From NCBI GenBank assembly GCA_016192995.1, contig JACPTB010000001.1:253110-317109 (forward strand): a stretch of DNA of 64,000 bases, given 5' to 3'. A program made the translations under genes and the position numbers. This document shows positions 4,773 to 63,591 of the stretch, one piece after another. The notes below the pieces were generated by a model that saw only the letters and a program-made list of their open reading frames with translations, made no database searches and was not told the origin of the DNA. Source of the DNA: Candidatus Woesearchaeota archaeon (lineage in GTDB: Archaea > Nanobdellota > Nanobdellia > Woesearchaeales > DSVV01). Position 1 is the first letter of the stretch; each line of letters begins with the position of its first letter.

Positions 4773-4927
4773 GTACGTAATAAGTCTGGAGTTTTAGCGC
4801 CTACTTTTGTGAAGCTCTTCTTAAATTCACTTTGGGGATTTTTCGAGGTTCCAGAGAGAAAAATCCAATTTTAAATTCATTTAGAAGCTGAACTGGCGCT
4901 AAAACTGAAAAATGACTTATTACGTAC
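4773..4927. repeat. Modular hairpin element (MHE), type A
   Basis: 155 bp nested palindrome. The terminal inverted repeats are gtacgtaataagtc / gacttattacgtac. Inside lie a second palindromic pair (ttttagcgcc / ggcgctaaaac) and a core containing ttcgaggttccagagag. No clear target duplication is visible. It abuts the next element. Confidence 0.85.
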
Positions 4928-4935
4928 TTTTTTTG

Positions 4936-5098
4936 CGGCTTCGGTGAAAATCTCGGCATAGCCTCGGTTTTGGTGCCGTGATTATCCCGCTTATTTATAA
5001 GAAGGAAAAAATTCCTATTGGAATTTCCTTTTTTCTCGCTCATTAATTTGAAAGATAATCACAAGCATGGCACCAAAAACTACATTTTCACCGAAGCC
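4936..5098. repeat. Modular hairpin element, type C
   Basis: About 163 bp. The ends are ggcttcggtgaaaatc and ttttcaccgaagcc; the middle pair is ttggtgccgtgattatc / gataatcac..ggcacc, and the core contains tcctattggaatttcc. Reading frames that enter the next gene from here are artefacts. Nearly identical to the element at 34160-34322. Confidence 0.85.
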
Positions 5099-9795: not shown

Positions 9796-9875
9796 GTGGT
9801 TTTATTAAGGAGTTCTTATCTAATAAGTATATCACCATTAATTATTTATACTTATTACTCTTCTTGAAAATCAAC

Positions 9876-10712
9876 ATGGTAGATAAAGATATTAAAAAAG
9901 GGTTAATTGTATTTCAAGATAGGAAGATTAGGAGACTTTGGCATGATAATCAATGGTTTTATTCTGTTGTTGATATAGTTGCAGTATTAAGTGAAAGTGA
10001 TAATCCAATGACCTATTGGAGGGTACTTAAACATAGAGAATCCCAACTCGTTACAATTTGTAACGGTTTGAAAATGCCAGCTGAGGATGGCAAATCACGA
10101 TATACTGATTGCGTCAATACCAAAAATGCTTTTCGGCTTATCCAGTCAATTCCATCCAAGAAAGCAGAGCCGTTTAAGATGTGGTTAGCTCAGGTTGGTA
10201 AGGAAAGAATTGAAGAAATTGAAAATCCAGAGCTTGCTCAAGATAGGGTGAAAGAATACTATGAACTCAAAGGTTATCCAAAAAACTGGATAGACAAAAG
10301 GTTAAGGGGCATTGCCATAAGGCAAGATTTAACGGATGAATGGAAATCAAGAGGCATCCAAGAAGAGAACGATTTCGCCATTCTGACTAATGAAATCTCA
10401 AAGGCAACATTTGGTAAGACAGTTGGTGAATACAAGCAGTTTAAGGGATTGAAGAAACCGAACCAAAATCTCAGAGATCATATGACTGATTGGGAATTGA
10501 TTTTAACTATGGTTGGTGAGAAAGCTACAACTGATATTACTGTTGCGAAAGACGCAAAGGAGTTTCCACAGTTAAAACAAACCGCAAAAGAAGGCGGAGA
10601 CATTGCTAAGAATACACGAAAAGAACTGGAACAGAAAATTGGGAAGTCTGTTATTTCAAATGAAAATTATTTACATTTAGCTGAAAGAAAGAAAAATAAA
10701 CTATTAAAATAA
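9876..10712 (+). CDS. BRO-N / DinD-like protein
   Basis: 278 residues from the ATG at 9876, which lies 28 nt after a TATA-like atttatact; a TTG four codons earlier is less likely. The N-terminal 110 residues match the BRO-N domain (WHDNQWFYSVVDIVAVLSES, then an AFRLIQSIPSKKAEPFKMWL segment), a DNA-binding domain common in viruses and mobile elements. The remainder (KGYPKNWIDKRLRGIAIRQD, LTNEISKATFGKTV) resembles the C-terminal half of DinD-like proteins. It may be of viral or plasmid origin; function in the cell unknown. A hairpin element lies about 100 bp downstream. Confidence 0.75.
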   Translation: MVDKDIKKGLIVFQDRKIRRLWHDNQWFYSVVDIVAVLSESDNPMTYWRVLKHRESQLVTICNGLKMPAEDGKSRYTDCVNTKNAFRLIQSIPSKKAEPFKMWLAQVGKERIEEIENPELAQDRVKEYYELKGYPKNWIDKRLRGIAIRQDLTDEWKSRGIQEENDFAILTNEISKATFGKTVGEYKQFKGLKKPNQNLRDHMTDWELILTMVGEKATTDITVAKDAKEFPQLKQTAKEGGDIAKNTRKELEQKIGKSVISNENYLHLAERKKNKLLK

Positions 10713-10814: not shown

Positions 10815-10977
10815 AGAGAACTTTGCAAAATTATGGTTACTGCCAATTTCGTGAGCATTTTCGAGGTGCATATCGAGCAATTTTCGAGGTTCCAGAGAGA
10901 AAATTGCTTTGTTAAAAAGATATCTCAATGCGAACTGGCAGTAACCCGAGCTTTGCGAGTATTTTGCAAAGTTCTCT
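10815..10977. repeat. Modular hairpin element, type E
   Basis: 163 bp. The ends are agagaactttgcaaaat / attttgcaaagttctct; the middle pair is ggttactgcc / ggcagtaacc, with the shared core ttcgaggttccagagag. It directly abuts the stop codon of the micro-ORF at 10978. The 100 bp before it (10713-10814) hold nothing I recognise. Confidence 0.85.
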
Positions 10978-14497: not shown

Positions 14498-17400
14498 TTA
14501 TTTTATTTCACCATCTGCTAATAATTCAGGATTATAAACTTTTTCAAATGGTACTCTTGCCCTCAATGTTTCATTATAATGAAAAGCATAGCTATTCTCA
14601 GAATAATCTTTATCAATAAAGGTTTGTGATTTGTCAGGTTTTGAAATGAATAAAAACTGTCCCCAAATAGCTTCTAAAGGATGGTCAATAAGTAATGATT
14701 TCTTGTCAGCAATATCATAAATTATCTTTGTTCCTTTAAGGGTCATAAACACTTCAAAATCATTGTTTGTTTTGGTTGCTGGATACCATCCAAAACCATC
14801 TGTTTCTTGAAGTGTGCTTGCATAGAATTTAATTATATCATTATTCAAATCATCATAGTATGCTCCAATTACAAATTCATCAGCTGGTGACAATGTACCA
14901 CCTGGAGTTTGCTTGATACCAAGATAATTAAATGATGGAAGTTGTTGATCATTGTGTTCAACAAAGAGTATTCCTTCAAATGATTGTGATGCTGTATACT
15001 TGTTGATTAAGTAAAGACTTGCATTCTCTTTTGTTAGAATTGGTCTCATCGGAAGTTCTAAATTGTTTCCTGATTGTTTATAACCACCAAAGCCAAGGTC
15101 ACTAAACGTGATTGTAGTATCAACTATATTTAAACTAAATTTGGAGTTTGGACTGTCATCAAAAGGATAAGTATAATAAGTATTAGAACTGGGTACGGTA
15201 AAAGAAATAGCGTAAGATTTACCATATGTTACATCATTAATAACCATTTTTTGATTAAAAATGTCTATTGATTTTATTTGCATAAGATGAGCGTTATTAT
15301 TGAAATCAATAATTATAAAATATGCCTCTTGACAAGCAGTCAGCTTATTCTCTGTGGCTAGCAATCCCGAGCATGATTCACCTTCAAGATATACTCTTTC
15401 ATCTGGATGTTGATCAAATTCCACAGGGGCATCAGTTCCCCAGTAGGTAAGTTCTTTATCAGTTACTTGAGCACTTCCAAGATTATTACTCGTAATTAAT
15501 TTTGGTCCACTCGGCGCAATAAATACTGCTTTTTCATAAGCATAAGCATCAGCAGATAATGGCAATGTTACATCTTGACCATCATTATTAGTGAATACGA
15601 TTTCTGCTGAACTTGATCCACCAACAAAACTGATTTCTTCCCTAGGATTGTCTTGGTTTTGATCGTTGAGATATCCAAATCTAATACTGAAAGTTTCAAG
15701 CAAGGGATCAGTTAAGGCATCACCAAGTTTCAGAAATTGTGTATTTTCAGGTGTATAATTGTAACCAAAACCTAATAAAATATTTTTGTTATAAGGATCT
15801 TTTCTGTAAACAGATGGTTTTATGCTCGTTATCACTTCGTTGTTAACAGTTACTGATGACGCTTCGTAGTCTTGCCCATTAAAGAATTTAACGATTCTTG
15901 GTTCGATGGCAAGTTTGCATTTATACGTTGGTTTATTATCAACAATAACCTCGGTAAGATTTAAGTAGAACTCTATATTATTTGCAACGCTGAATTCATC
16001 AGGAATTCCAGGATGTATAAAAAAAGCATTTCCATCTAAAGAGAATTCACACCAAGTTTTATCAAAATCTAATGAATCAGGATCAGAAGATTTATACTGA
16101 ATATTGCTTTCTAAAAGCGTTAATTTATGGCAATTGCCATCTTCAAAAGCAAAGCTGATACTTTCTCCAGGATAATTAAATACTTTAGTGTATTTACTAA
16201 ACAGCAATTTTAACATAAAGTAACTAGGATAATTTGGAAGGTAATAACTATCAAGAACTTCAGCTTCATATCCTTGGAAGTTTATCAAGTGCTTATCAGC
16301 AAAAAAAGCATTACTTAATAAGTCAATCGGCGGCATAAAGGTGAGATTATAAGCATAGAAGCTTTTTTGCTGAGGAAGAATCTTCAAATAAGTTATTGGT
16401 TCTTGAAATGAGGCATCTGGATACCCAAATACTAATCGGGCACCAGCTTTACTAAAATTGCTATCAGGCGCAATACTTATTGTTTGTAGGTACTCTTTCT
16501 CTGTTGGTATTCCTTTTTTATAGTCAAGCAACTGCATGCATGCTTCATCAGAAACACAACTGCCAGATTCACAATGATAACCTTCAGGGCATTTTTGCGG
16601 TTCTTCGTAGCCGACAATGATATTGTCTTTGCAGACCGATTCTACGGCATAATCACCATATTGTACTGGATTATTTTTTACTTCTTCTAATGTGGAATAT
16701 GCTGTGCAAAAATCAGGGGATTCTATAAATGATTGAGGATTATTTTTTGTAGTTTCATCAAATGTTTCGTAACCTTTTGCAGTGTTTGCTTCAAATATAT
16801 TATTCCCATCTTTATCCTGGCAGCCGCAAGCTCCTTGATTGCAAGGACACTCAATATATGCTGAGGTTATTTGTTCTGTTTCTTTACAATAATATTCTTG
16901 AACATAGGTTTTATCACTGTTAATAACCAAATTAAGATTTGGTGACATCTCAAGTATTTCTTTGCCGGTGAAACATTGATCGCTGCCTGTAATCATTTCA
17001 TTATAGTCATAGTTTAATCCTGTTGTTTTTCCATATATAAATGGTTCATCTCCGCCATCTGTGTCAGTACAAGTGTTTGTTGGTTCAATTGGTGAGCATG
17101 CTTTGTTTAGATGAAGAATAGTTCCTTGGTCACCAACAATATAAACATCATTGCTTGAACTACCCCAAATATCCGATAAATGCACAGTTGTGCCACTTTC
17201 CATTTTTTTCCAGCTTACACCATCATAATGTAGAATCACTCCACCTGTACCTGTAGCAAATACATCACTGTCTGAATTACCAAAAATACCCAATAAATGC
17301 CCAACTATGTTGCTCTCCATTTTTTTCCAACTTACTCCATCATAATGCAGAATTGTTCCACCCCATCCTGCTACAAATACATCATTGCTCGAACTGCCCC

Positions 17401-20400
17401 AAATATCCCATAACTCCTCAGTAGTGCCACTTTCCATTTTTTTCCAAATTACTCCATCATAATGCAGAATTGTTCCACTATAACCAACAGCAAATACATC
17501 ATTGTTTGAACTGCCCCAAATACCTTCTAAACCAGCAATCGTACCGCTCTCCATTTCTTTCCAGTTTACACCATCATAATGCAGAATTGTTCCACTATAA
17601 CCAACAGCAAATACATCATTGTTTGAACTGCCCCAAATACCCCACAAACTCTTAGTTCCACTCTCCATTTCTTTCCAGTTTACACCATCATAATGCAGAA
17701 TAGTTTCTTCTATACCAAAAACAGATTCACCAACAGCAAATACGTCATTGTTTGAACTACCCCAAATGTCAGCTAAAGTCTTAATTGCGCCAGTTTCCAT
17801 TTTTTTCCAACTTATCCCATCATAATGCAGAATCATTCCACTCTTTTGCAGACCAAAATTATAAAAACCTACTGCGAATACATCATTGCTTGAACTGCCC
17901 CAAACACCCAATAAATCCTCAGTTGTGCCACTCTCCATTTTCTCCCATTTTAGTTCATTTGGATTACATTGTAGGCAAACACCATTATCACATCCATAAG
18001 GACAAATAAATTGATTTGATTTTATTTGATTTACATCGCAAATATATTCATATAATACATCTCCTTCACAAGTATCTGTTTCCTGTTGTCCTGTATTTCC
18101 TGATATAAGTGTTGATTGCTTATGAACTAGATTGCCCCAATTCTGAACAACTGTTGGACATTGATTGTAATCAAAGCAAGTCACTGGAACTTCTTGCTGA
18201 TAGATGAAATCTTCTACAAGCCCTTTGTCTATGAAAATGCCGAAGTTGATCTTCTTACCATTACAATATTCTTCATTTAAAACAAGACCGTCCATTTTTC
18301 CCTGTTCTACAAAGGTAAAACTATCACCAGGATTAAATTGAATAGGTACTTCTGTTTTTACGAGCTGGTTCCAGAAATAACCGTCTGCTTCAATATAAGA
18401 ACCTAATTCTTGAAAATTATAACTTTGATCACCATTATTTTTAACATCACACAACAGGTAGTTCGTTCCTGGTATTGCTTTCCCGGTATTGTCAAAACCT
18501 CCTTTAATATAACGGCAATTATTGACGAGGAATCCTTCTGGTGTTTCTTGCTGAGTTTTACATATGCTATGAATAATTTCTCCATTATAAGCAACTGTGT
18601 AAATATCATTGCTTGAACTGCCCCAAATACCTACTAAATATTTAGTTGTTCCACTCTCCATCTCAGTCCAAGTATTGCCATCATAATGTAGTATTTTTTC
18701 ATAACGTGTAGCGAATACATCATTGCTTGAACTACCCCAGATACCACTTAAACTTACTTTTGTTCCACTCTCCATTTCAGTCCAAGTATTGCCATTATAA
18801 TGAAGAATTATTCCATCATGACCTACCGCAAATACATCATTACTTGAACTACCCCAAATACCATTTAGACCTACTTTTGTTCCACTCTCCATTTCAGTCC
18901 AAGTATTGCCATCATAATGAAGAATTGTTCCATCCCAACCTACAGCAAATACATCATTGCTTGAACTGCCCCAAATATTGAATAACGTATATGGTGTTCC
19001 ACTCTCCATTTCAGTCCAAGTATTGCCATCATAATGAAGAATTGTTCCATCCCAACCTACAGCAAATACATCATTGCTTGAACTGCCCCAGATACCACTT
19101 AAATGTACTTTTTGTACTTTTGTTCCACTCTCCATCTCAGTCCAACTTACACCATTATAATGAAGAATTGTTCCATCATAACCTACCGCAAACACATCAT
19201 TACTTGAACTACCCCAAATACCTACTAAATGTTTAGTTGTGCCACTTTCGATCTTTTCCCAACCTAATGCAGGACACTGACATGCACCATCAATACAACC
19301 AAAGGTACAAGTATCAACAAAACTATCAAAGGGAATATCATTACTTTCAGAACATATTCCTTCTAGTATATAATCACCTGTTGATTGTTTTGAATCTGGA
19401 TCTTGAGAAGCTAAACATGAATCTTCTTGAGAGATTTCTTGGTTATCCCATGTCCAACCTTTAGTTAGTTCTTTAGTATAAATATCACTACCATCAGGAT
19501 CCAAACATTTAGTATATTTTTTATCAGAACACCTTCCGTCAAAACATCCATACTCACATTTATACCAATCAGCCTGCGTAGGTTCAACAAAATAATCATC
19601 AAATTCATTATCTGAATTAACGGTAATTCCTTGCTGATTATTACCGCAGCTTCCTTCAATAACTCCTACATCATTAGGTTCAAGATTAGGATCATTGGCA
19701 AAATCATAATTGCTGCCAAAAACATCTTCTGCTGAAACACAAGTATCTTGTTGTGAACTATAAGCTCCATCTGAAGTGTAACCATTTGTTATTCCAATTT
19801 CATAATTCTCCCCTAAATCACTGTCCCAGCCTAAATCTATGCCTTTATCACTATCATAACATCCTTTTGCTTCATAACAACCGCCAAAATACTGATAATA
19901 TTGAAAAATAGTATTAAATGAATTATAATCTTTAGCACCTTTAATTACAATGTCTTCAATTCCAGCAGGAAAGTCATGAACAACAAAATAAGGCACACCA
20001 TCAATAGTAAATAAATTTGAAAGCGCAACATCCTTATCAACCTTTGCTTGAGTTTGAGGTGAATCTAAACAATTTTGAAACTGAATAAGATCCATACCAA
20101 CGTAATCTGCGTATTCAATAAGCGCTGCAGTATCATATACATTAAAATTTTCATGTAATAAATAATCAACATATTCCCAATACTTGCCTTGTTCTTCTGC
20201 GCAAAATGTTGCACGATCTGTTTGTGCAAGATTAGGATTTAACCAATTCCAGTTCTTTGGATCCACTTCTCTTATCTGAAAATTAATTTTACCAGTATCA
20301 ATGTAATAATGTTTTATCAGTGGGAATGTTTCTTTGTACCATTTTTTTGCATGTGGATCTCCATATGCATTAAACATAACTAAGGTAAAAGGCGCAGCAG

Positions 20401-22153
20401 GATCACCTATGATTGGTTTTCCATCAATAAGATTAATTTGTTCAAATTCATCGCTCTCACCAACACCATCTACTTGACTAGAAAATTCGCTATCATCAAC
20501 AACATCACATTGCAAACATGCGCCATCAACACATCCTTGTGGACAAGAAGGATAATAAGAATTCATGAGATAATCATTATTAACATTATAATTACAGATA
20601 AATTCCCTCAAATAGCAGTTTTTTCCCTGACAAGAACTAACTTTAGTTGGCCAATTAGGAATGTCTGTGTAACAAGAATCAGTTTCTGTGATATCACCTT
20701 CAATAGCATTAGTTTGATCATTGGCAAGAATAATATCTTCTTTTGAGAGAAAACCCTGAGTTGTTCCCTGAATAGAAATATTCAAACCATCAGAATCAAT
20801 ACAAGTAATACAGGCACCATCTTTACATCCTAAGGGACAAGAAAGTTGATTAAGAACAGCTCCCCTTTCTACACCAATATCTAACATGCAAACACCTTCA
20901 AGAATATATTTTCCTTCAGAAACATGAGGCGCAGTAGCACCTAATATATCCAGTTGATCAGTGCAAAAATCGGTGCCTTGCTCATTGACAACACCATCAA
21001 TCTTTTCAGTAAACGTTCCCTTCACGATAAAATTAGGTTTTTCATTTAATCCAACAGTATCTGTATCCTCACAAGTAGTTTTAACACATTTCCCATTAAC
21101 ACATGCCTGTTCACAATCATAATTTTTATCTTCCTGCTGATTATCAACACAGATCTTTTCATGCAGTTTTTTAATACTCGGAGCAACTTCTGTTATTTTA
21201 ATTTCATTGCCGTTATTATCAACACATGTATCATAAATATCTAAAGGATTACCATTAATATCATTGACCGTTACAAAATCTTTATTCGTTGGTGTGTCAC
21301 CTGTTAGATCTTCACAAAACTCTCCAATACATTTATCACAAGGTCCTCCGCAATCAACACCTGTTTCACCTTGATTTTGTAATTCATCGCTGCACGTAGG
21401 AGATTGACAAACACCTTTATCGCAGAGACCTTCACAAGCTTGGGATTTTGCTTCAGTTATATAATACCCTTTACCAGCATCTTGAGCTTTACAGGTTTGC
21501 TCAATAACAAACCATTTTTTAACACCATTTATTTCAACTGGTTTGCAAGAATCCTCAGAAGGAACACAATATGCTAATCCCCCTGCTTTTTGTTTCTTTA
21601 ACAACACCTTGCCAAAAACAGTTGGATTATTGCCACCATCAGTATCATAACAACCAATTTCAAGACATTTTTGTAGTCCAGGATCTTGCTGTACTGACTT
21701 GCATACACCTTTTTCACATCCACCTGGACATTCGATGAGTTCTGTTTTCAAACCTAGCCCTAATGACTCGTTAGCACCTGGACCTGAAAGCTCGGCACAT
21801 ATTTGTTCTTTAACATATGATTTACCTCGATCAATGATACAACTATCAGGAATTTTATCACAGGTTTTTTTGTCTTTCTTTAGATAAACAGTACCAAATT
21901 TCAATGGGCTGTAACCATCAGTATCATAACAACCTTGTTTTTGACATGCTTCCTGCGCTATTGTTTCAATGCGAGAATTTTCACGGGTAGTTTTTCCCGT
22001 TGAAGTATCTATTTTTTTGGTGTTTATTGACCGAGAGGTATCAAAATGACCAGGATTGTGGTTAGCTATTACAGACATTGATAAAAAGACGACAAAAATA
22101 ACGGTAATTGTTAATAGAACCATTGTTTTATAGTTATTGTTGTTATATTTCAT
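14498..22153 (-). CDS. Giant secreted Cys-rich, beta-propeller protein with dead DsbA-like domain
   Basis: 2551 residues. A signal peptide (MVLLTITVIFVVFLSMSVIA, within residues 11-30) is seen. Cys-rich modules (CYDTDG/CYDTDGG starts, ending ..CPGGCEKGVC and similar) fill about 50-565, 755-960, 1300-1400 and 1690-1870, with one ETGVDCGGPCDKC repeat near 265. Residues about 571-754 are a DsbA/thioredoxin-like domain whose CxxC is replaced by DPHA (near 605), though the cis-proline loop (GVPYFVV) remains. Two arrays of IWGSSSNDVFAVG / TILHYDG repeats follow: six copies (about 964-1194) and seven (about 1401-1681), probably beta-propellers. Residues 1872-2551 are unknown, probably beta-rich. There is no C-terminal anchor, so it is secreted or bound to the surface by other proteins. 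The upstream Cys-rich gene ends 21 bp before it, suggesting an operon. Confidence 0.85.
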   Translation of the reverse strand: MKYNNNNYKTMVLLTITVIFVVFLSMSVIANHNPGHFDTSRSINTKKIDTSTGKTTRENSRIETIAQEACQKQGCYDTDGYSPLKFGTVYLKKDKKTCDKIPDSCIIDRGKSYVKEQICAELSGPGANESLGLGLKTELIECPGGCEKGVCKSVQQDPGLQKCLEIGCYDTDGGNNPTVFGKVLLKKQKAGGLAYCVPSEDSCKPVEINGVKKWFVIEQTCKAQDAGKGYYITEAKSQACEGLCDKGVCQSPTCSDELQNQGETGVDCGGPCDKCIGEFCEDLTGDTPTNKDFVTVNDINGNPLDIYDTCVDNNGNEIKITEVAPSIKKLHEKICVDNQQEDKNYDCEQACVNGKCVKTTCEDTDTVGLNEKPNFIVKGTFTEKIDGVVNEQGTDFCTDQLDILGATAPHVSEGKYILEGVCMLDIGVERGAVLNQLSCPLGCKDGACITCIDSDGLNISIQGTTQGFLSKEDIILANDQTNAIEGDITETDSCYTDIPNWPTKVSSCQGKNCYLREFICNYNVNNDYLMNSYYPSCPQGCVDGACLQCDVVDDSEFSSQVDGVGESDEFEQINLIDGKPIIGDPAAPFTLVMFNAYGDPHAKKWYKETFPLIKHYYIDTGKINFQIREVDPKNWNWLNPNLAQTDRATFCAEEQGKYWEYVDYLLHENFNVYDTAALIEYADYVGMDLIQFQNCLDSPQTQAKVDKDVALSNLFTIDGVPYFVVHDFPAGIEDIVIKGAKDYNSFNTIFQYYQYFGGCYEAKGCYDSDKGIDLGWDSDLGENYEIGITNGYTSDGAYSSQQDTCVSAEDVFGSNYDFANDPNLEPNDVGVIEGSCGNNQQGITVNSDNEFDDYFVEPTQADWYKCEYGCFDGRCSDKKYTKCLDPDGSDIYTKELTKGWTWDNQEISQEDSCLASQDPDSKQSTGDYILEGICSESNDIPFDSFVDTCTFGCIDGACQCPALGWEKIESGTTKHLVGIWGSSSNDVFAVGYDGTILHYNGVSWTEMESGTKVQKVHLSGIWGSSSNDVFAVGWDGTILHYDGNTWTEMESGTPYTLFNIWGSSSNDVFAVGWDGTILHYDGNTWTEMESGTKVGLNGIWGSSSNDVFAVGHDGIILHYNGNTWTEMESGTKVSLSGIWGSSSNDVFATRYEKILHYDGNTWTEMESGTTKYLVGIWGSSSNDIYTVAYNGEIIHSICKTQQETPEGFLVNNCRYIKGGFDNTGKAIPGTNYLLCDVKNNGDQSYNFQELGSYIEADGYFWNQLVKTEVPIQFNPGDSFTFVEQGKMDGLVLNEEYCNGKKINFGIFIDKGLVEDFIYQQEVPVTCFDYNQCPTVVQNWGNLVHKQSTLISGNTGQQETDTCEGDVLYEYICDVNQIKSNQFICPYGCDNGVCLQCNPNELKWEKMESGTTEDLLGVWGSSSNDVFAVGFYNFGLQKSGMILHYDGISWKKMETGAIKTLADIWGSSNNDVFAVGESVFGIEETILHYDGVNWKEMESGTKSLWGIWGSSNNDVFAVGYSGTILHYDGVNWKEMESGTIAGLEGIWGSSNNDVFAVGYSGTILHYDGVIWKKMESGTTEELWDIWGSSSNDVFVAGWGGTILHYDGVSWKKMESNIVGHLLGIFGNSDSDVFATGTGGVILHYDGVSWKKMESGTTVHLSDIWGSSSNDVYIVGDQGTILHLNKACSPIEPTNTCTDTDGGDEPFIYGKTTGLNYDYNEMITGSDQCFTGKEILEMSPNLNLVINSDKTYVQEYYCKETEQITSAYIECPCNQGACGCQDKDGNNIFEANTAKGYETFDETTKNNPQSFIESPDFCTAYSTLEEVKNNPVQYGDYAVESVCKDNIIVGYEEPQKCPEGYHCESGSCVSDEACMQLLDYKKGIPTEKEYLQTISIAPDSNFSKAGARLVFGYPDASFQEPITYLKILPQQKSFYAYNLTFMPPIDLLSNAFFADKHLINFQGYEAEVLDSYYLPNYPSYFMLKLLFSKYTKVFNYPGESISFAFEDGNCHKLTLLESNIQYKSSDPDSLDFDKTWCEFSLDGNAFFIHPGIPDEFSVANNIEFYLNLTEVIVDNKPTYKCKLAIEPRIVKFFNGQDYEASSVTVNNEVITSIKPSVYRKDPYNKNILLGFGYNYTPENTQFLKLGDALTDPLLETFSIRFGYLNDQNQDNPREEISFVGGSSSAEIVFTNNDGQDVTLPLSADAYAYEKAVFIAPSGPKLITSNNLGSAQVTDKELTYWGTDAPVEFDQHPDERVYLEGESCSGLLATENKLTACQEAYFIIIDFNNNAHLMQIKSIDIFNQKMVINDVTYGKSYAISFTVPSSNTYYTYPFDDSPNSKFSLNIVDTTITFSDLGFGGYKQSGNNLELPMRPILTKENASLYLINKYTASQSFEGILFVEHNDQQLPSFNYLGIKQTPGGTLSPADEFVIGAYYDDLNNDIIKFYASTLQETDGFGWYPATKTNNDFEVFMTLKGTKIIYDIADKKSLLIDHPLEAIWGQFLFISKPDKSQTFIDKDYSENSYAFHYNETLRARVPFEKVYNPELLADGEIK
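17105..17955 (-). repeat. Tandem coding repeats, seven propeller units
   Basis: Seven units of roughly 115-135 bp encode the IWGSS-x-NDVFAVG...ILHYDG...W-K-MESGT motif. Neighbouring units are nearly identical in DNA, for example those around 17440-17640. The array can expand or contract by recombination and is prone to misassembly. Confidence 0.85.
18570..19262 (-). repeat. Tandem coding repeats, six propeller units
   Basis: Six units encode the same propeller motif with the variant W-T-EMESGT. Two adjacent units around 18890-19070 are almost identical at DNA level. The unit at about 18690-18720 is degenerate (VFATRYEKILHY), with the usual VG-x-DG turn lost. Confidence 0.85.
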
Positions 22154-24734: not shown

Positions 24735-24925
24735 GGCACAATCCAAAAAATGAGTGATATTGCGAAAATGCCTTCGGCAGCCACCATCGGTTCGGCTGTA
24801 GATGTTTGTTATGGAAGATGCTATCCTCTCTGGAACCTCGGATAGCATTTGATGAAACATCAGATAAGCCTCGCAAAAAAGATGGTGGCACTTTTCGCAA
24901 TATCACTTACAAATTGGATTGTGCC
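24735..24925. repeat. Modular hairpin element, type D
   Basis: 191 bp with ends ggcacaatccaaaaaatgag / ggattgtgcc. Inner palindromic modules include gcgaaaatgccttcggc and ccaccatcggttcggct, with a core bearing ctctctggaacctcg. No target duplication is evident. Confidence 0.8.
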
Positions 24926-29340: not shown

Positions 29341-29553
29341 GGCATAATCCAAAAAATGAGTGATATTGCGAAAATGCCTTCGGCAGCCACGGAAAATCAC
29401 TATTTTCCTAGTTGCGTTCGTTTCACTCAGCAACCACCATCGGCTCGGCTGTAGATGTTTGTTATGGAAGATGCTATCCTCTCTGGAGTAGAAGAGCCTC
29501 GCAAAAAAGATGGTGGCACTTTTCGCAATATCACTTACAAATTGGATTGTGCC
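29341..29553. repeat. Modular hairpin element, type D with extra arm module
   Basis: 213 bp, flanked by a perfect 8 bp direct repeat (gaaaatac at 29333-29340 and 29554-29561), the expected mark of transposition. Relative to the 24735 copy it carries an extra arm block containing gttgcgttcgtttcactcag. Confidence 0.85.
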
Positions 29554-33097: not shown

Positions 33098-33677
33098 TTA
33101 AATCTGCTCTGGTAAACAAGTCTTGACAAGGTGCCTACAATTATGAAAACCTTTTAAATCACGTGTTATTATGAATTCTGCATTTCCTTTCTCAGCCAAA
33201 ACAGCATGTAACGGATCTTGATAATGTTCAGATAATGACTTCGCATAGGCAATATCATTATCGTTAATTGGTATTAAAATTGTTTTTCTTTTCAAAAATG
33301 TAAATAACATAGCTGTTTTGTAATCGTCAGCATATTTACGTAATTCCTGAATCAGCCAAGTAGACGTTATTATCTGAAATTTACAACTAACTGTTCGTTG
33401 AAATATCCTAAATGCTTTATCTTCAAGGTCATCACCTTGTTTATTCTTACGTTCCAATAAGGCTCTGGTGAAAATCTCGGCATAGCCTCAGTTTTGGCAT
33501 CAGTTCGGCTTTTGATATATTTATGTTATTGGATTTTTCTCTCTGGCACTCCGAAAAATCCCCGATAAATATATGGGAAGAGCCTCACAAAAAGATGCCA
33601 AAAACTACATTTTCACCAGAGCCTTCGAATAAGTAATCTAAATAAACATTAGTATCAAGATAAATTCGTTTACTCAT
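33098..33677 (-). pseudogene. PIN-domain gene interrupted by a hairpin element
   Basis: The 5' part (33677-33624) encodes MSKRIYLDTNVYLDYLFE, the classic first strand of a PIN nuclease with its catalytic Asp. The 3' part (33460-33098) encodes the remainder, including ITSTWLIQELRKYADD (second acidic patch) and DPLHAVLAE...FIITRDLKGF (later conserved Asp). Between them sits a 163 bp hairpin element with 9 bp flanking repeats. Joining the parts after removing the element and one repeat gives DYLFERKNKQGDD in one frame. With the element the frame shifts by one. The 3' part could be made alone from a TTG at 33457 but would lack the first catalytic Asp. Confidence 0.88.
33461..33623. repeat. Modular hairpin element, type B, inside the PIN gene
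   Basis: 163 bp with ends ggctctggtgaaaatc / ttttcaccagagcc and a core with ctctctggcactccg. It is flanked by the direct repeats ttccaataa (33452-33460) and ttcgaataa (33624-33632), eight of nine matching. It is the only copy seen inside a gene. Confidence 0.9.
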
Positions 33678-34159: not shown

Positions 34160-34322
34160 CGGCTTCGGTGAAAATCTCGGCATAGCCTCGGTTTTGGTGC
34201 CGTGATTATCCCACTTATTTATAAGAATGAAAAAATTCCTATTGGAATTTCCTTTTTTCTCGCTCATTAATTTGAAAGATAATCACCAGCATGGCACCAA
34301 AAACTACATTTTCACCGAAGCC
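34160..34322. repeat. Modular hairpin element, type C
   Basis: 163 bp, nearly identical to the copy at 4936-5098. It is flanked by a perfect 8 bp direct repeat tcttgcag (34152-34159 and 34323-34330). Confidence 0.88.
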
Positions 34323-34746: not shown

Positions 34747-34902
34747 GGTATGTAATAAGTCTTCTTTAGGTTTTAGTGCCAGTTCAGCTTCACAGGTGAC
34801 TAAACATTGGATTTTTCTCTCTGGCACTCCGAAAAATCCCCAATATAAATTTAAGAAGAGCTTCACAAAATAGGCACTAAAACCCCTGACTTATCACATA
34901 CC
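34747..34902. repeat. Modular hairpin element, type A variant
   Basis: About 156 bp. The ends are ggtatgtaataag / cttatcacatacc, diverged from the usual gtacgtaataag. The short flank attaaa is repeated on both sides (34741-34746, 34903-34908). Confidence 0.82.
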
Positions 34903-36693: not shown

Positions 36694-36740
36694 TGTTAAA
36701 TGTGAATATTTTATATTTCTTATTTTTTATGTTAATCTAA

Positions 36741-36903
36741 GGCTCTGTAGAAAATCTTCGCTAACGCTCAGGTTTTGGCACCGTGATTATCTCATGTATG
36801 TATAACAAGGAAAAAATTCCTATTGGAATTTCCTTTTTTCTCACCTATTGATTGGTAGGATAATCACAGGAATGGTGCCAAAAACTACATTTTCTACAGA
36901 GCC
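36741..36903. repeat. Modular hairpin element, type B
   Basis: 163 bp with ends ggctctgtagaaaatc / ttttctacagagcc and the tcctattggaatttcc core. Perfect 9 bp direct repeats (ttaatctaa at 36732-36740 and 36904-36912) flank it. Confidence 0.9.
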
Positions 36904-36947
36904 TTAATCTAAGAAAAATATATAAGTAATAATCTCATATTATTACT

Positions 36948-37601
36948 ATGCACGGCTTAGAAGAAAAAAAAGAGCTTCTTATTGCTTATTGGAGAGAGCG
37001 TTATAGCTTTACTGAAGCAGAGCTCGAAGCATTTAAAGCTATACAACGAGAAGAGTTTATGCCGAAAGAATTTCAAGCATTTGCTTATCAAGATACTGCA
37101 TTACCTATTTTACGAGGCAAAACAATCTCTCAGCCAACAACAGTTATGCTTATGACCCATGCTCTTGAATTACAATTAGGAGAAAAGGTATTTGAGGTTG
37201 GAACTGGCTCAGGTTATCAAACAGCGCTTCTTGCAGAATTGGTGGGAACTAAGGGAAAAGTTATTAGTTGTGAAGTGATTCCTGAATTAGTAGATTTTGC
37301 CCGTGAAAATTTGAAAAAAGCTGGAATTACTAATGTAACTATTTTTGAAGAAGACGGTTCTAAGGGTTTTCCAAGTGAAGCTCCCTTTGATAAAATCATC
37401 ATAACTGCTGCTTCATTAGAATTTCCAAAAGAATTGATTGAACAATTAAATGTAAGCGGCATTATTGTCGGTCCAGTAGGAGATAGGGATGAACAGGAGA
37501 TGGTGAAAGGAATTAAGCAAAACAATGGAAAGCTTGCATTAGAATTTTTAGGACAATTTTTGTTTTCTCCGTTATATGGAAGATATGGGTTTGAAGTTTA
37601 A
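36948..37601 (+). CDS. pcm: Protein-L-isoaspartate O-methyltransferase
   Basis: 217 residues. It methylates isoaspartyl residues in damaged proteins, starting their repair. The Pcm motifs are seen: a substrate loop AYQDTALPILRGKTISQPT, the SAM-binding VFEVGTGSGYQTALLAELVG, then VISCEVIPELVDFA and FDKIIITAA. The sequence is of normal length. A TATA box (about 36916-36926) lies 25 nt upstream of the ATG, implying a leaderless mRNA. The upstream hairpin element ends only 45 bp before the start and its 9 bp repeat borders this promoter, so the insertion may have altered it. Confidence 0.9.
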   Translation: MHGLEEKKELLIAYWRERYSFTEAELEAFKAIQREEFMPKEFQAFAYQDTALPILRGKTISQPTTVMLMTHALELQLGEKVFEVGTGSGYQTALLAELVGTKGKVISCEVIPELVDFARENLKKAGITNVTIFEEDGSKGFPSEAPFDKIIITAASLEFPKELIEQLNVSGIIVGPVGDRDEQEMVKGIKQNNGKLALEFLGQFLFSPLYGRYGFEV

Positions 37602-37618
37602 TAGCAAATAAATAACAA

Positions 37619-37674
37619 GGCTCTTTAGAAAATCTTGGCATAGCCTCGGTTTTGGCAAGATTTTCTAAAGAGCC
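37619..37674. repeat. Minimal modular hairpin element, type B
   Basis: 56 bp with ends ggctctttagaaaatctt / aagattttctaaagagcc around gcatagcctcggttttggc. Flanked by a perfect 9 bp direct repeat aaataacaa (37610-37618, 37675-37683). It is the smallest unit with complete ends. Confidence 0.88.
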
Positions 37675-37691
37675 AAATAACAAGAAAATAC

Positions 37692-38395: not shown

Positions 38396-38637
38396 GTACG
38401 TAATAAGTCTGGGGTTTTAGCGCCTACTTTTGTGAAGCTCCTCGATATCTTTATTAGGGATTTTTCGGGGTTCCTTGCCGATAGGCAAGTCTTATAATCC
38501 CAGACGCAAGCCAAATTATGACTCCTTGATTTATATTATTGAGGGAGTCGGGATTATATTTATAGAGAGAAAAATCCAATCGAACTAACTTGAAAAGCTG
38601 AACTGGCGCTAAAACCAAAGGAGGACTTATTACGTAC
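38396..38637. repeat. Modular hairpin element, type A with large core insert
   Basis: 242 bp. The core is interrupted between ggttcc and agagag by about 90 bp that includes ttgccgataggcaag and tataatccc repeats. Direct repeats atttgat (38389-38395, 38638-38644) flank it. A second element follows at once. Confidence 0.85.
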
Positions 38638-38644
38638 ATTTGAT

Positions 38645-38807
38645 GGCTCTGTCCCGAATATAGTTTTTGGTGCCATGCTGGTGATTATCCTTCAAATTAA
38701 TGAGTGAGAAAAAAGGAAATTACAATGGGAATTTTTTCCTTCTTATCAACAAGTGGGATAATCACGGCACCAAAACCGAGGCGTTAGCCGAGATTCGGGA
38801 CAGAGCC
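38645..38807. repeat. Modular hairpin element, type B
   Basis: 163 bp with ends ggctctgtcccgaat / attcgggacagagcc, core reversed relative to the 36741 copy. It sits directly beside the preceding element, with the right-hand atttgat repeat shared between them. Confidence 0.82.
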
Positions 38808-51758: not shown

Positions 51759-51911
51759 GGCTCTGGTGAAAATGTAGTTTTAGCGCCCATTCTGTGAAGC
51801 TTTTTTTAGATAACTGTGGGGATTTTTCGGAGTTCCAGAGAGAAAAATCCAATGTTTAATCACTTTTGAAGCTGAACTGGCGCTAAAACCTGAAAGATTT
51901 TCACCAGAGCC
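51759..51911. repeat. Modular hairpin element, type B ends with type A interior
   Basis: 153 bp with ends ggctctggtgaaaat / ttttcaccagagcc around the ttttagcgcc pair and ttccagagag core. No clear direct repeat. The next gene's TATA box begins ten bases beyond it. Confidence 0.82.
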
Positions 51912-54255: not shown

Positions 54256-54407
54256 GTACGTAATAAGTCTTCTTCGGTTTTAGCGTCGGTTCAGCTTTTG
54301 ATGTGATTCTACATTGGATTTTTCTCTCTGGAACCTCGAAAAATCCTCACTGTGATTAAAGAAAAGCTTCACAAAGTAGGCGCTAAAACTCCAGACTTAT
54401 TACGTAC
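54256..54407. repeat. Modular hairpin element, type A
   Basis: 152 bp with perfect ends gtacgtaataagtc / gacttattacgtac, middle ttttagcg / cgctaaaac, and core ctctctggaacctcg. The flanks ctatcct and ctatacct may be a worn duplication. Confidence 0.85.
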
Positions 54408-56560: not shown

Positions 56561-56714
56561 GAGTTTGTCGCATAATCTGCCGCCATCAATATTGCGAGGC
56601 TTATCAAATAATGAATCGAGTACTTTTCGAGGTTCCAGAGAGAAAAGTACCTTTGAGTAAATAATCAAAAGCCGAGCCGATGGCGGCTGCCGAAGGCATT
56701 TATGCGACAAACTC
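56561..56714. repeat. Modular hairpin element, type F
   Basis: 154 bp with ends gagtttgtcgcataa / ttatgcgacaaactc and a middle gccgccatc / gatggcggc shared with type D, plus the ttcgaggttccagagag core. It forms a compound with the next element. Confidence 0.8.
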
Positions 56715-56723
56715 AGAAAAATT

Positions 56724-57010
56724 TACGTAATAAGTCTTCTATGGTTTTATTAAAAATCACTATTTTTAATCCCTGAGATCCTTCGGATTCAGGTAGCGCC
56801 GGTTCAGCTTTTGAAGTGTATTTTAATTGGATTTTTCTCTCTATAAATATAATCCCGACTCCCTCAATAATATAAATCAAGGATTCATAAGTTGGCTTGC
56901 GTCTGGGATTATAAGACTTGCCTATCGGCAAGGAACTCCGAAAAATCCCCGAAATATAAATCAGAAGAGCTTCACAACAATAGGCGCTAAAACCACAGAC
57001 TTATTATGTA
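56724..57010. repeat. Modular hairpin element, type A, enlarged
   Basis: About 287 bp. It carries both the arm insert of the 28447 element and the core insert of the 38396 element, in reverse orientation. The 9 bp direct repeat cggaaagat is at 56551-56559 and 57011-57019, enclosing this and the preceding element together. Confidence 0.8.
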
Positions 57011-57021
57011 CGGAAAGATAA

Positions 57022-60636: not shown

Positions 60637-60799
60637 TGAGAACTTTGCAAAATACTCGCAAAGCTCGGGTTACTGCCAGTTCGCATTGAGATATCTGTTC
60701 AACAAAGCAATTTTCTCTCTGGAACCTCGAAAATTGTCCGATAAGTATTTCGAAAATGCTTACAAAATAGGCAGTAACCATAATTTTGCAAAGTTCTCT
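60637..60799. repeat. Modular hairpin element, type E
   Basis: 163 bp, an inverted-orientation relative of the 10815 copy, with ggttactgcc / ggcagtaacc and the ctctctggaacctcg core. Beyond it (60800-60860) is a GC-rich patch, unlike the surroundings, that I cannot assign. Confidence 0.82.
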
Positions 60800-63436: not shown

Positions 63437-63591
63437 GTACGTAATAAGTCCTCTTTTGGTTTTAGCGCCAGTTCAGCTTAAACTTATTGTTTTGATTGGA
63501 TTTTTCTCTCTGGAACCCAGAAAAATCCCCAAAGTGAATTTAAGAAGAGCTTCACAAAAGTAGGCGCTAAAACCCATGACTTATTACGTAC
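63437..63591. repeat. Modular hairpin element, type A
   Basis: 155 bp with perfect ends gtacgtaataagtc / gacttattacgtac. A perfect 8 bp direct repeat attttaaa flanks it (63429-63436 and 63592-63599). Confidence 0.9.

Follow-up and report, generated by a model that had tools for sequence, protein, structure and literature searches.

Gene-less, target-duplicating elements with one kind of hairpin interior under several terminal-repeat families in a woesearchaeal genome

The 64,000-nt stretch of a Candidatus Woesearchaeota genome analysed here (C1:253110-317109 of genome G000; hereafter the window) carries two neighbouring short elements, at 36741 and 37619, that probably belong to a superfamily of gene-less mobile DNA cassettes. 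To judge from their sequences, each such cassette would be one long hairpin in which the interior is shared while the terminal inverted repeats come in several unrelated types, and transposases specific for the end type would move it in trans. The elements duplicate their target on insertion, their ends set the length of the duplication, the same interior is found under different ends, the architecture recurs across the order, and second elements lie flush against resident ones. For copy counts, the genome (1.617 Mb in 16 contigs, 99.6% complete) was sampled through the window and further stretches, ~762 kb in total or about half of it; sampled stretches are labelled L (e.g. L027) and genomes G, G000 being the genome of the window.

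We distinguish the end families GGC9 (GGCTCT.../GGCTTC.../GGCAGT... ends, 9-bp rule), GTAC8 (GTACGTAAT ends, 8-bp rule), GGCAC (GGCACAATCC ends, 8 bp) and GAGAAC (4 bp). The two neighbours are both GGC9 elements, and the perfect 9-bp target duplications that a sequence-only reading had reported around them are each exact (names of open reading frames, ORFs, were assigned by eye):

36732..36740 and 36904-36912, no strand: exact 9-bp target duplication TTAATCTAA around the 36741 element
36741..36903, plus strand: full-length GGC9 element of 163 bp with GGCTCTGTAGAAAATC ends and a core A hairpin; its neighbours are a LemA-like and a PIMT-like ORF
37610..37618 and 37675-37683, no strand: exact 9-bp target duplication AAATAACAA around the 56-bp element
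37619..37674, plus strand: minimal GGC9 element of 56 bp, its right arm a 19-bp perfect inverted copy of its left arm

Both neighbours are genuine mobile insertions with target duplications. To evaluate chance, we set the element ends by their terminal repeats and compared each left flank with the right flank of its own copy and, as the expectation, with right flanks re-paired from other copies. An exact duplication of the family length was present in 30/92 GGC9 copies (0.011 expected), 23/50 GTAC8 copies (0.04 expected), 6/11 GGCAC copies (0 expected) and 14/21 GAGAAC copies (1.3 expected), so that flank identity, far from falling to chance level over all copies, stays well above it in four end families. 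With at most one mismatch, 50/92 GGC9 copies have the 9-bp duplication; duplications of 8 bp occur in five copies of this family and of 10 bp in two. The GGCTTCATCC subfamily, which looks youngest, has an exact 9-bp duplication in 12/12 complete copies examined.

The sequence-only reading had also listed duplications of 7 and 8 bp and proposed a DDE transposase acting in trans, and this interpretation is partly supported. The duplications ATTTTAAA (63437-63591) and GAAAATAC (29341-29553) are exact at 8 bp, but TCTTGCAG (34161-34322) is not: once the GGCTTC end is fixed, it becomes 9 bp with one mismatch (TCTTGCAGC/TCTTGCAGG). ATTTGAT (38396-38637) is an exact 7-bp repeat, although the family rule is 8, and sits in a tandem pair. 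The 7-9 bp spread is thus mostly family-specific, the terminal repeat family setting the length even under an identical interior. Insertion at staggered cuts and the lack of genes in the copies agree with a DDE transposase in trans, but a single loose enzyme behind the whole spread does not hold. That reading did not notice the interior common to the families, the swapping of ends or the flush tandems.

The effect of the ends is seen most directly where one interior occurs under two of them. The TTTAGCGCC/core B interior is bordered by 9-bp duplications under GGC9 ends (exact in 3 copies and with one mismatch in 4; lengths of 5, 8 and 10 occur once each) and by 8-bp duplications under GTAC8 ends (19 exact). 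Core A comes mostly with 9 bp (GGC9), but with 8 bp under GTAC8 and 4 bp under GAGAAC ends, the latter two with one exact copy each. Measured against the nearest GTAC8 interior, the GGC9-ended TTTAGCGCC/core B copies reach a median identity of 0.90, and GTAC8 copies reach 0.92 among themselves, whereas the terminal 15 bp of the GGC9-ended copies are only 33-56% identical to GTAC8. Ends and interiors recombine, and the duplication length follows the end, not the interior.

All end families carry one kind of hairpin interior with exchangeable stems. From the outside inwards it consists of the terminal repeat H1 (~15 bp), a one-arm mini-hairpin in most families, H2 (9-10 bp), a 2-bp GY/RC step, a TC/TC internal loop, H3 (~5 bp), two unpaired spacers and H4 with an apical loop. 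In core B this loop reads TCTCTGG(A/C)A(C/T)(C/T)C, and in core A AAGGAAAAAATTCC...TTTCCTTTTTTC replaces H4; further cores occur in other genomes. Across 44 interiors from the end families and G051, 98.7% of cells were paired, with double changes in 17/23 pairs, compared with 35-55% in slid controls, and at each of the two pairs of the GY/RC step 44/44 cells were paired. The spacers, in 73 copies, measure 16-18 nt (57 distinct sequences) and 18-19 nt (60 distinct); a pairing between left and right spacers was considered and rejected, since they do not pair with each other. The elements form long stable folds.

A few copies depart from this plan. The 199-bp GTAC8 copies and some GGCAC copies bear an extra hairpin with the same loop on differing stems (TTAAAAATCACTATTTTTAA versus GGAAAATCACTATTTTCC; L017:6494-6692, L024:8349-8547, L042:17759-17936). 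The former also carry a GATCC-TTC-GGATT hairpin, the opposite strand of which is C-GAA-G, a very stable DNA mini-hairpin. In the GGC9 element L031:10047-10206, the inner hairpin is inverted relative to the ends, as expected from recombination between the H2 arms.

A covariance model of the interior, R1, was searched in 288 genomes of the same order. Although trained without core A, it recovers the 36741 element (E 1.6e-4), and it has matches, often in multiple copies, in 35/288 genomes (G000 included) and 29/193 genera; ten other genomes of the same family that were examined had no match. In 34 of the matches from the order, 94.8% of cells were paired, with double changes in 22/23 pairs, compared with 32-51% in slid controls. 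This alignment was fitted to R1 and leans towards structure, but we argue from the slid controls and the near-invariant unpaired motifs that model fitting is not the whole reason for the order-wide pairing. The interior of ~110 nt, the unpaired motifs GYTC / TCRC and the 13-nt core B loop are kept across the 35 genomes despite differing stem sequences. Several copies in relatives have duplications of their own: CATCATTCA in G051 (L068, 9 bp), TTCTTTCCC in G088 (L082, 9 bp), CATTAAATC in G162 (L089, 9 bp) and TATTGTTA in G042 (L070, 8 bp). In public genome contigs, the exact core B pattern was found in Woesearchaeota/Nanoarchaeota metagenome-assembled genomes only, and viral contigs gave no match to it.

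In the sampled sequence, 177 paired elements make up 3.9% of the total, nested inner repeats not counted. Fifteen neighbour pairs lie at a gap of exactly 7-9 bp (9 at 8, 5 at 9, 1 at 7) and none at 10-35 bp, whereas ~0.3 pairs would be expected at 5-11 bp under uniform placement, or 2.4 if 12% of the sequence were usable. In well-preserved tandems the spacer repeats the outer flanks (t-E1-t-E2-t), as in L027:15036-15359, which reads GATAGCCA-GTAC8-GATAGCCAA-GGC9-GATAGCCAA. Gaps of one duplication imply that the second strand transfer took place at the end of the resident element or at most 1 base from it.

In regards to the enzyme, the sequence-only reading had pointed to insertion sequences sharing these ends, but the search for them, genome-wide for GGCTTCATCC and in the sampled half for the other families, turned up none. 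Genome-wide, GGCTTCATCC end pairs are 104-336 bp apart, and the unpaired ends examined have no gene-bearing partner. In G141, with 39 ends per strand, the spacing within pairs on a single contig is 161-212 bp; many of the ends are located where contigs break off, and a longer copy may exist there. Five transposase families (PF01609, PF13610, PF12762, PF00872 and PF01610) gave 0 matches in G000, IS1, IS903-type IS5, ISAs1 and Y1 not being searched, and no family transposase was found there for a derivation from the IS4/IS5 type (DDE_Tnp_1), IS6, IS256, IS1595 or ISL3. The element-bearing relatives searched have one IS1595 (PF12762; G270, L094) and one ISL3 transposase (PF01610; G057, L129), both discarded as candidates since none of these ends flank them. 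Basic ORFs were likewise dismissed: they encode Fic proteins, integrases and a resolvase, from which duplications of 8-9 bp would not be expected. Once ORFs that are read from the elements are set aside, the multi-copy ORFs belong mainly to one BRO-N-like protein family, as judged by eye.

The simplest source of fixed 9-, 8-, 8- and 4-bp duplications is DDE-type strand transfer in trans. DDE-type transposases, one per end type, would act in trans, cutting and joining the ends and leaving 9-, 8-, 8- or 4-bp duplications. The interior would act as a DNA hairpin, as an extruded cruciform or a single strand, recognised by its shape, and this could explain its persistence through changes of ends. 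New insertions would prefer the base of an extruded hairpin as target, giving flush tandems, and hairpin-templated copying between the arms would keep them complementary. Copying from arm to arm is visible in the minimal elements: perfect outer arms reach at most 15 bp in full-length GGC9 copies, compared with 19 in the 56-bp element at 37619 and 22 in the 47-bp L022:17747, and in these minimal copies the right arm is an inverted copy of the left, apparently rewritten from it. Taken further, the elements might form a class of mobile DNA defined by a shape-recognised hairpin, which swaps terminal repeats to use several transposases and guides new copies to the bases of resident hairpins, but we put this forward only tentatively.

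Several points weigh against the superfamily as we describe it. Minimal copies have exact duplications, so either insertion does not strictly require the interior or the interior disappeared afterwards. Neither the five families nor the end search yielded a cognate transposase or a gene-bearing copy, so mobilisation in trans is an inference. Arm-to-arm copying could alone produce double changes, and stem covariation therefore does not by itself demonstrate a function; a stronger case comes from the unpaired motifs and the spacer lengths, both of which are constant. Finally, the flush tandems could reflect a target preference for the duplicated sequence instead of hairpin bases.

The elements could also be ordinary miniature inverted-repeat transposable elements (MITEs), that is, internal deletion derivatives of several insertion sequences, with the interior a functionless accident spread by repeat recombination. 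Their terminal repeats, duplications and intergenic location (only 2/177 lie inside predicted ORFs, the remainder being intergenic or near stretch ends) are all MITE-like, the hybrids prove that elements recombine, and arm-to-arm copying is visible. This explanation, which we regard as unlikely but as a serious contender, would have to account for unpaired motifs, constant spacer lengths and ~110-nt interiors kept in 35 genomes under different stem sequences, and no parental insertion sequence was found. We classify the elements as MITE-like by their ends, duplications and lack of genes: terminal inverted repeats stand at fixed ends in many copies, duplication length is family-specific, and no transposase gene lies inside. 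An autonomous insertion sequence with the same ends, a further defining relation of MITEs, was found neither genome-wide for GGCTTCATCC nor in the sampled half for the other families. Lengths range overall from 32 to 336 bp, mostly 150-190 (GGC9, 162-163 bp in 49/92 copies; GTAC8, 152-156 for most; GAGAAC, 160-161 bp; GGCAC, 167-191 bp for most). What is new is the conserved, end-swapping hairpin interior.

Selection might instead act on a structured non-coding RNA that serves the cell or the element, with the DNA ends as a mere vehicle. Long stable folds, covarying stems, conserved loops and, in tandem intergenic regions, a slight excess of same-strand copies (48, against 28 on the opposite strand) would fit, but that bias is weak and no element matched Rfam 15 above the gathering score. 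Selection on an RNA would also favour G.U over A.C on the functional strand, whereas G.T and A.C mismatches are about equally frequent (27 versus 35 in 4,128 stem cells; order-wide, 6 versus 8) and wobble pairs are preferred on neither strand; the near-equal counts favour complementarity kept at the DNA level, and we consider a selected RNA improbable. The presence, between two stems, of an internal loop whose two sides vary in sequence but keep their length also recalls the bridge RNAs of IS110-type elements, in which case the spacers would be programmable target guides. However, their longest match to the own site was 5.82 versus 5.75 shuffled (left) and 5.70 versus 5.77 (right), the own insertion site was matched no better than other sites, and the 9/8/4-bp target duplications are set by the ends. 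We therefore rejected the spacers as guides, and hold a guide-type element to be very improbable.

Among known systems, integron attC sites are recognised by their folded single-strand shape while their sequence varies, by a tyrosine recombinase and without target duplication. They share shape recognition with the present hairpins as we interpret them, but lack target duplications and terminal inverted repeats of the kind found here. REPINs, mobilised by REP-associated tyrosine transposases (RAYT), are abundant intergenic hairpins probably handled as structured DNA, and our elements are like them in this respect; however, REPINs are not known to have fixed 8-9 bp target duplications or varied terminal repeats. 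RAYT are described in PMC2817692. According to PMC6887750, the V-SINE conserved domain is carried by the MER6 DNA transposon, so that a conserved non-coding module likewise rides a different class of mobile element; that module is vertebrate, SINE-derived and on one host transposon, whereas here at least 4 end types occur in one archaeal genome. Prokaryotic MITEs (reviewed in PMC10969869) are alike in being short, gene-less, multicopy and intergenic, with terminal inverted repeats, target duplications and presumed trans mobilisation. Unlike them, the present elements have one folded interior under at least 4 terminal-repeat families (9-, 8-, 8- and 4-bp duplications), exchange of ends, order-wide conservation, flush tandems and no parental insertion sequence found. 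Our literature search found no paper on MITEs in DPANN or Woesearchaeota, and none linking miniature inverted-repeat elements with conserved secondary structure in bacterial genomes.

MITE interiors are usually seen as dispensable leftovers, whereas here it is the interior that is conserved and the ends that can be swapped, so that the part read by the transposase and the part that gives the element its identity come apart. The hybrids are a natural experiment in which the terminal repeats alone set the duplication length. Given the share of the sampled genome that they cover and their order-wide recurrence, the elements are a major, apparently undescribed shaper of these small DPANN-type genomes, and with five transposase families giving no match they raise the question of the enzyme that moves them.

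Further elements in the window are as follows:

4773..4927, minus strand: GTAC8 element, 9 bp before a GGC9 element (flush pair)
4937..5098, plus strand: GGC9 element, partner of the 4773 element in the flush pair
10816..10976, minus strand: GAGAAC element, core B, 4-bp duplication
24735..24925, plus strand: GGCAC element, core B
29341..29553, plus strand: GGCAC element, 8-bp duplication GAAAATAC
33461..33623, plus strand: GGC9 element, core B hairpin, 9-bp duplication with 1 mismatch
34161..34322, plus strand: GGC9 element, GGCTTCGGTG ends, core A, 9-bp duplication with 1 mismatch
34748..34901, plus strand: GTAC8 element, core B
38396..38637, minus strand: GTAC8 element, 7-bp duplication ATTTGAT, first of a flush tandem pair
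38645..38807, minus strand: GGC9 element, GGCTCTGTCCCG ends, 7 bp after the GTAC8 element, second of the pair
51759..51911, minus strand: hybrid, GGC9 ends around an interior of GTAC8 type; identity to GTAC8 copy L041:10842 is 90%, but 33% over the terminal 15 bp
54256..54407, plus strand: GTAC8 element, core B
56561..56714, minus strand: GAGTTTG-ended element, 8 bp before a GTAC8 element
56723..57011, plus strand: GTAC8 element, partner of the 56561 GAGTTTG element
60638..60798, plus strand: GAGAAC element, core B, 4-bp duplication
63437..63591, plus strand: GTAC8 element, 8-bp duplication ATTTTAAA

Outside the window, a GAGAAC element (L042:16801-16961, 4-bp duplication CTTA) lies within the intron of a tRNA-Arg(CCT) gene, which ARAGORN recovers with a 14-nt intron once the element and one duplication are removed. 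A short ORF lies between a minimal GGC9 element of 59 bp and, ~310 bp further on, a GGC9 right end that stands alone (L025:11380-11820); it is possibly a captured gene and possibly a chance arrangement. The BRO-N/antirepressor-like family (by eye), the largest multi-copy family, has four copies (9864-10712 in the window, L030:6163, L035:8536 and L026:3391). Also, a phage-type integrase adjoins a serine resolvase at L017:12386-14142, possibly in an integrated element, and a 2551-aa ORF in the window (14498-22153) with repeated 'GSSSNDVFAVG' units and Cys-rich segments is, by eye, probably a surface protein.
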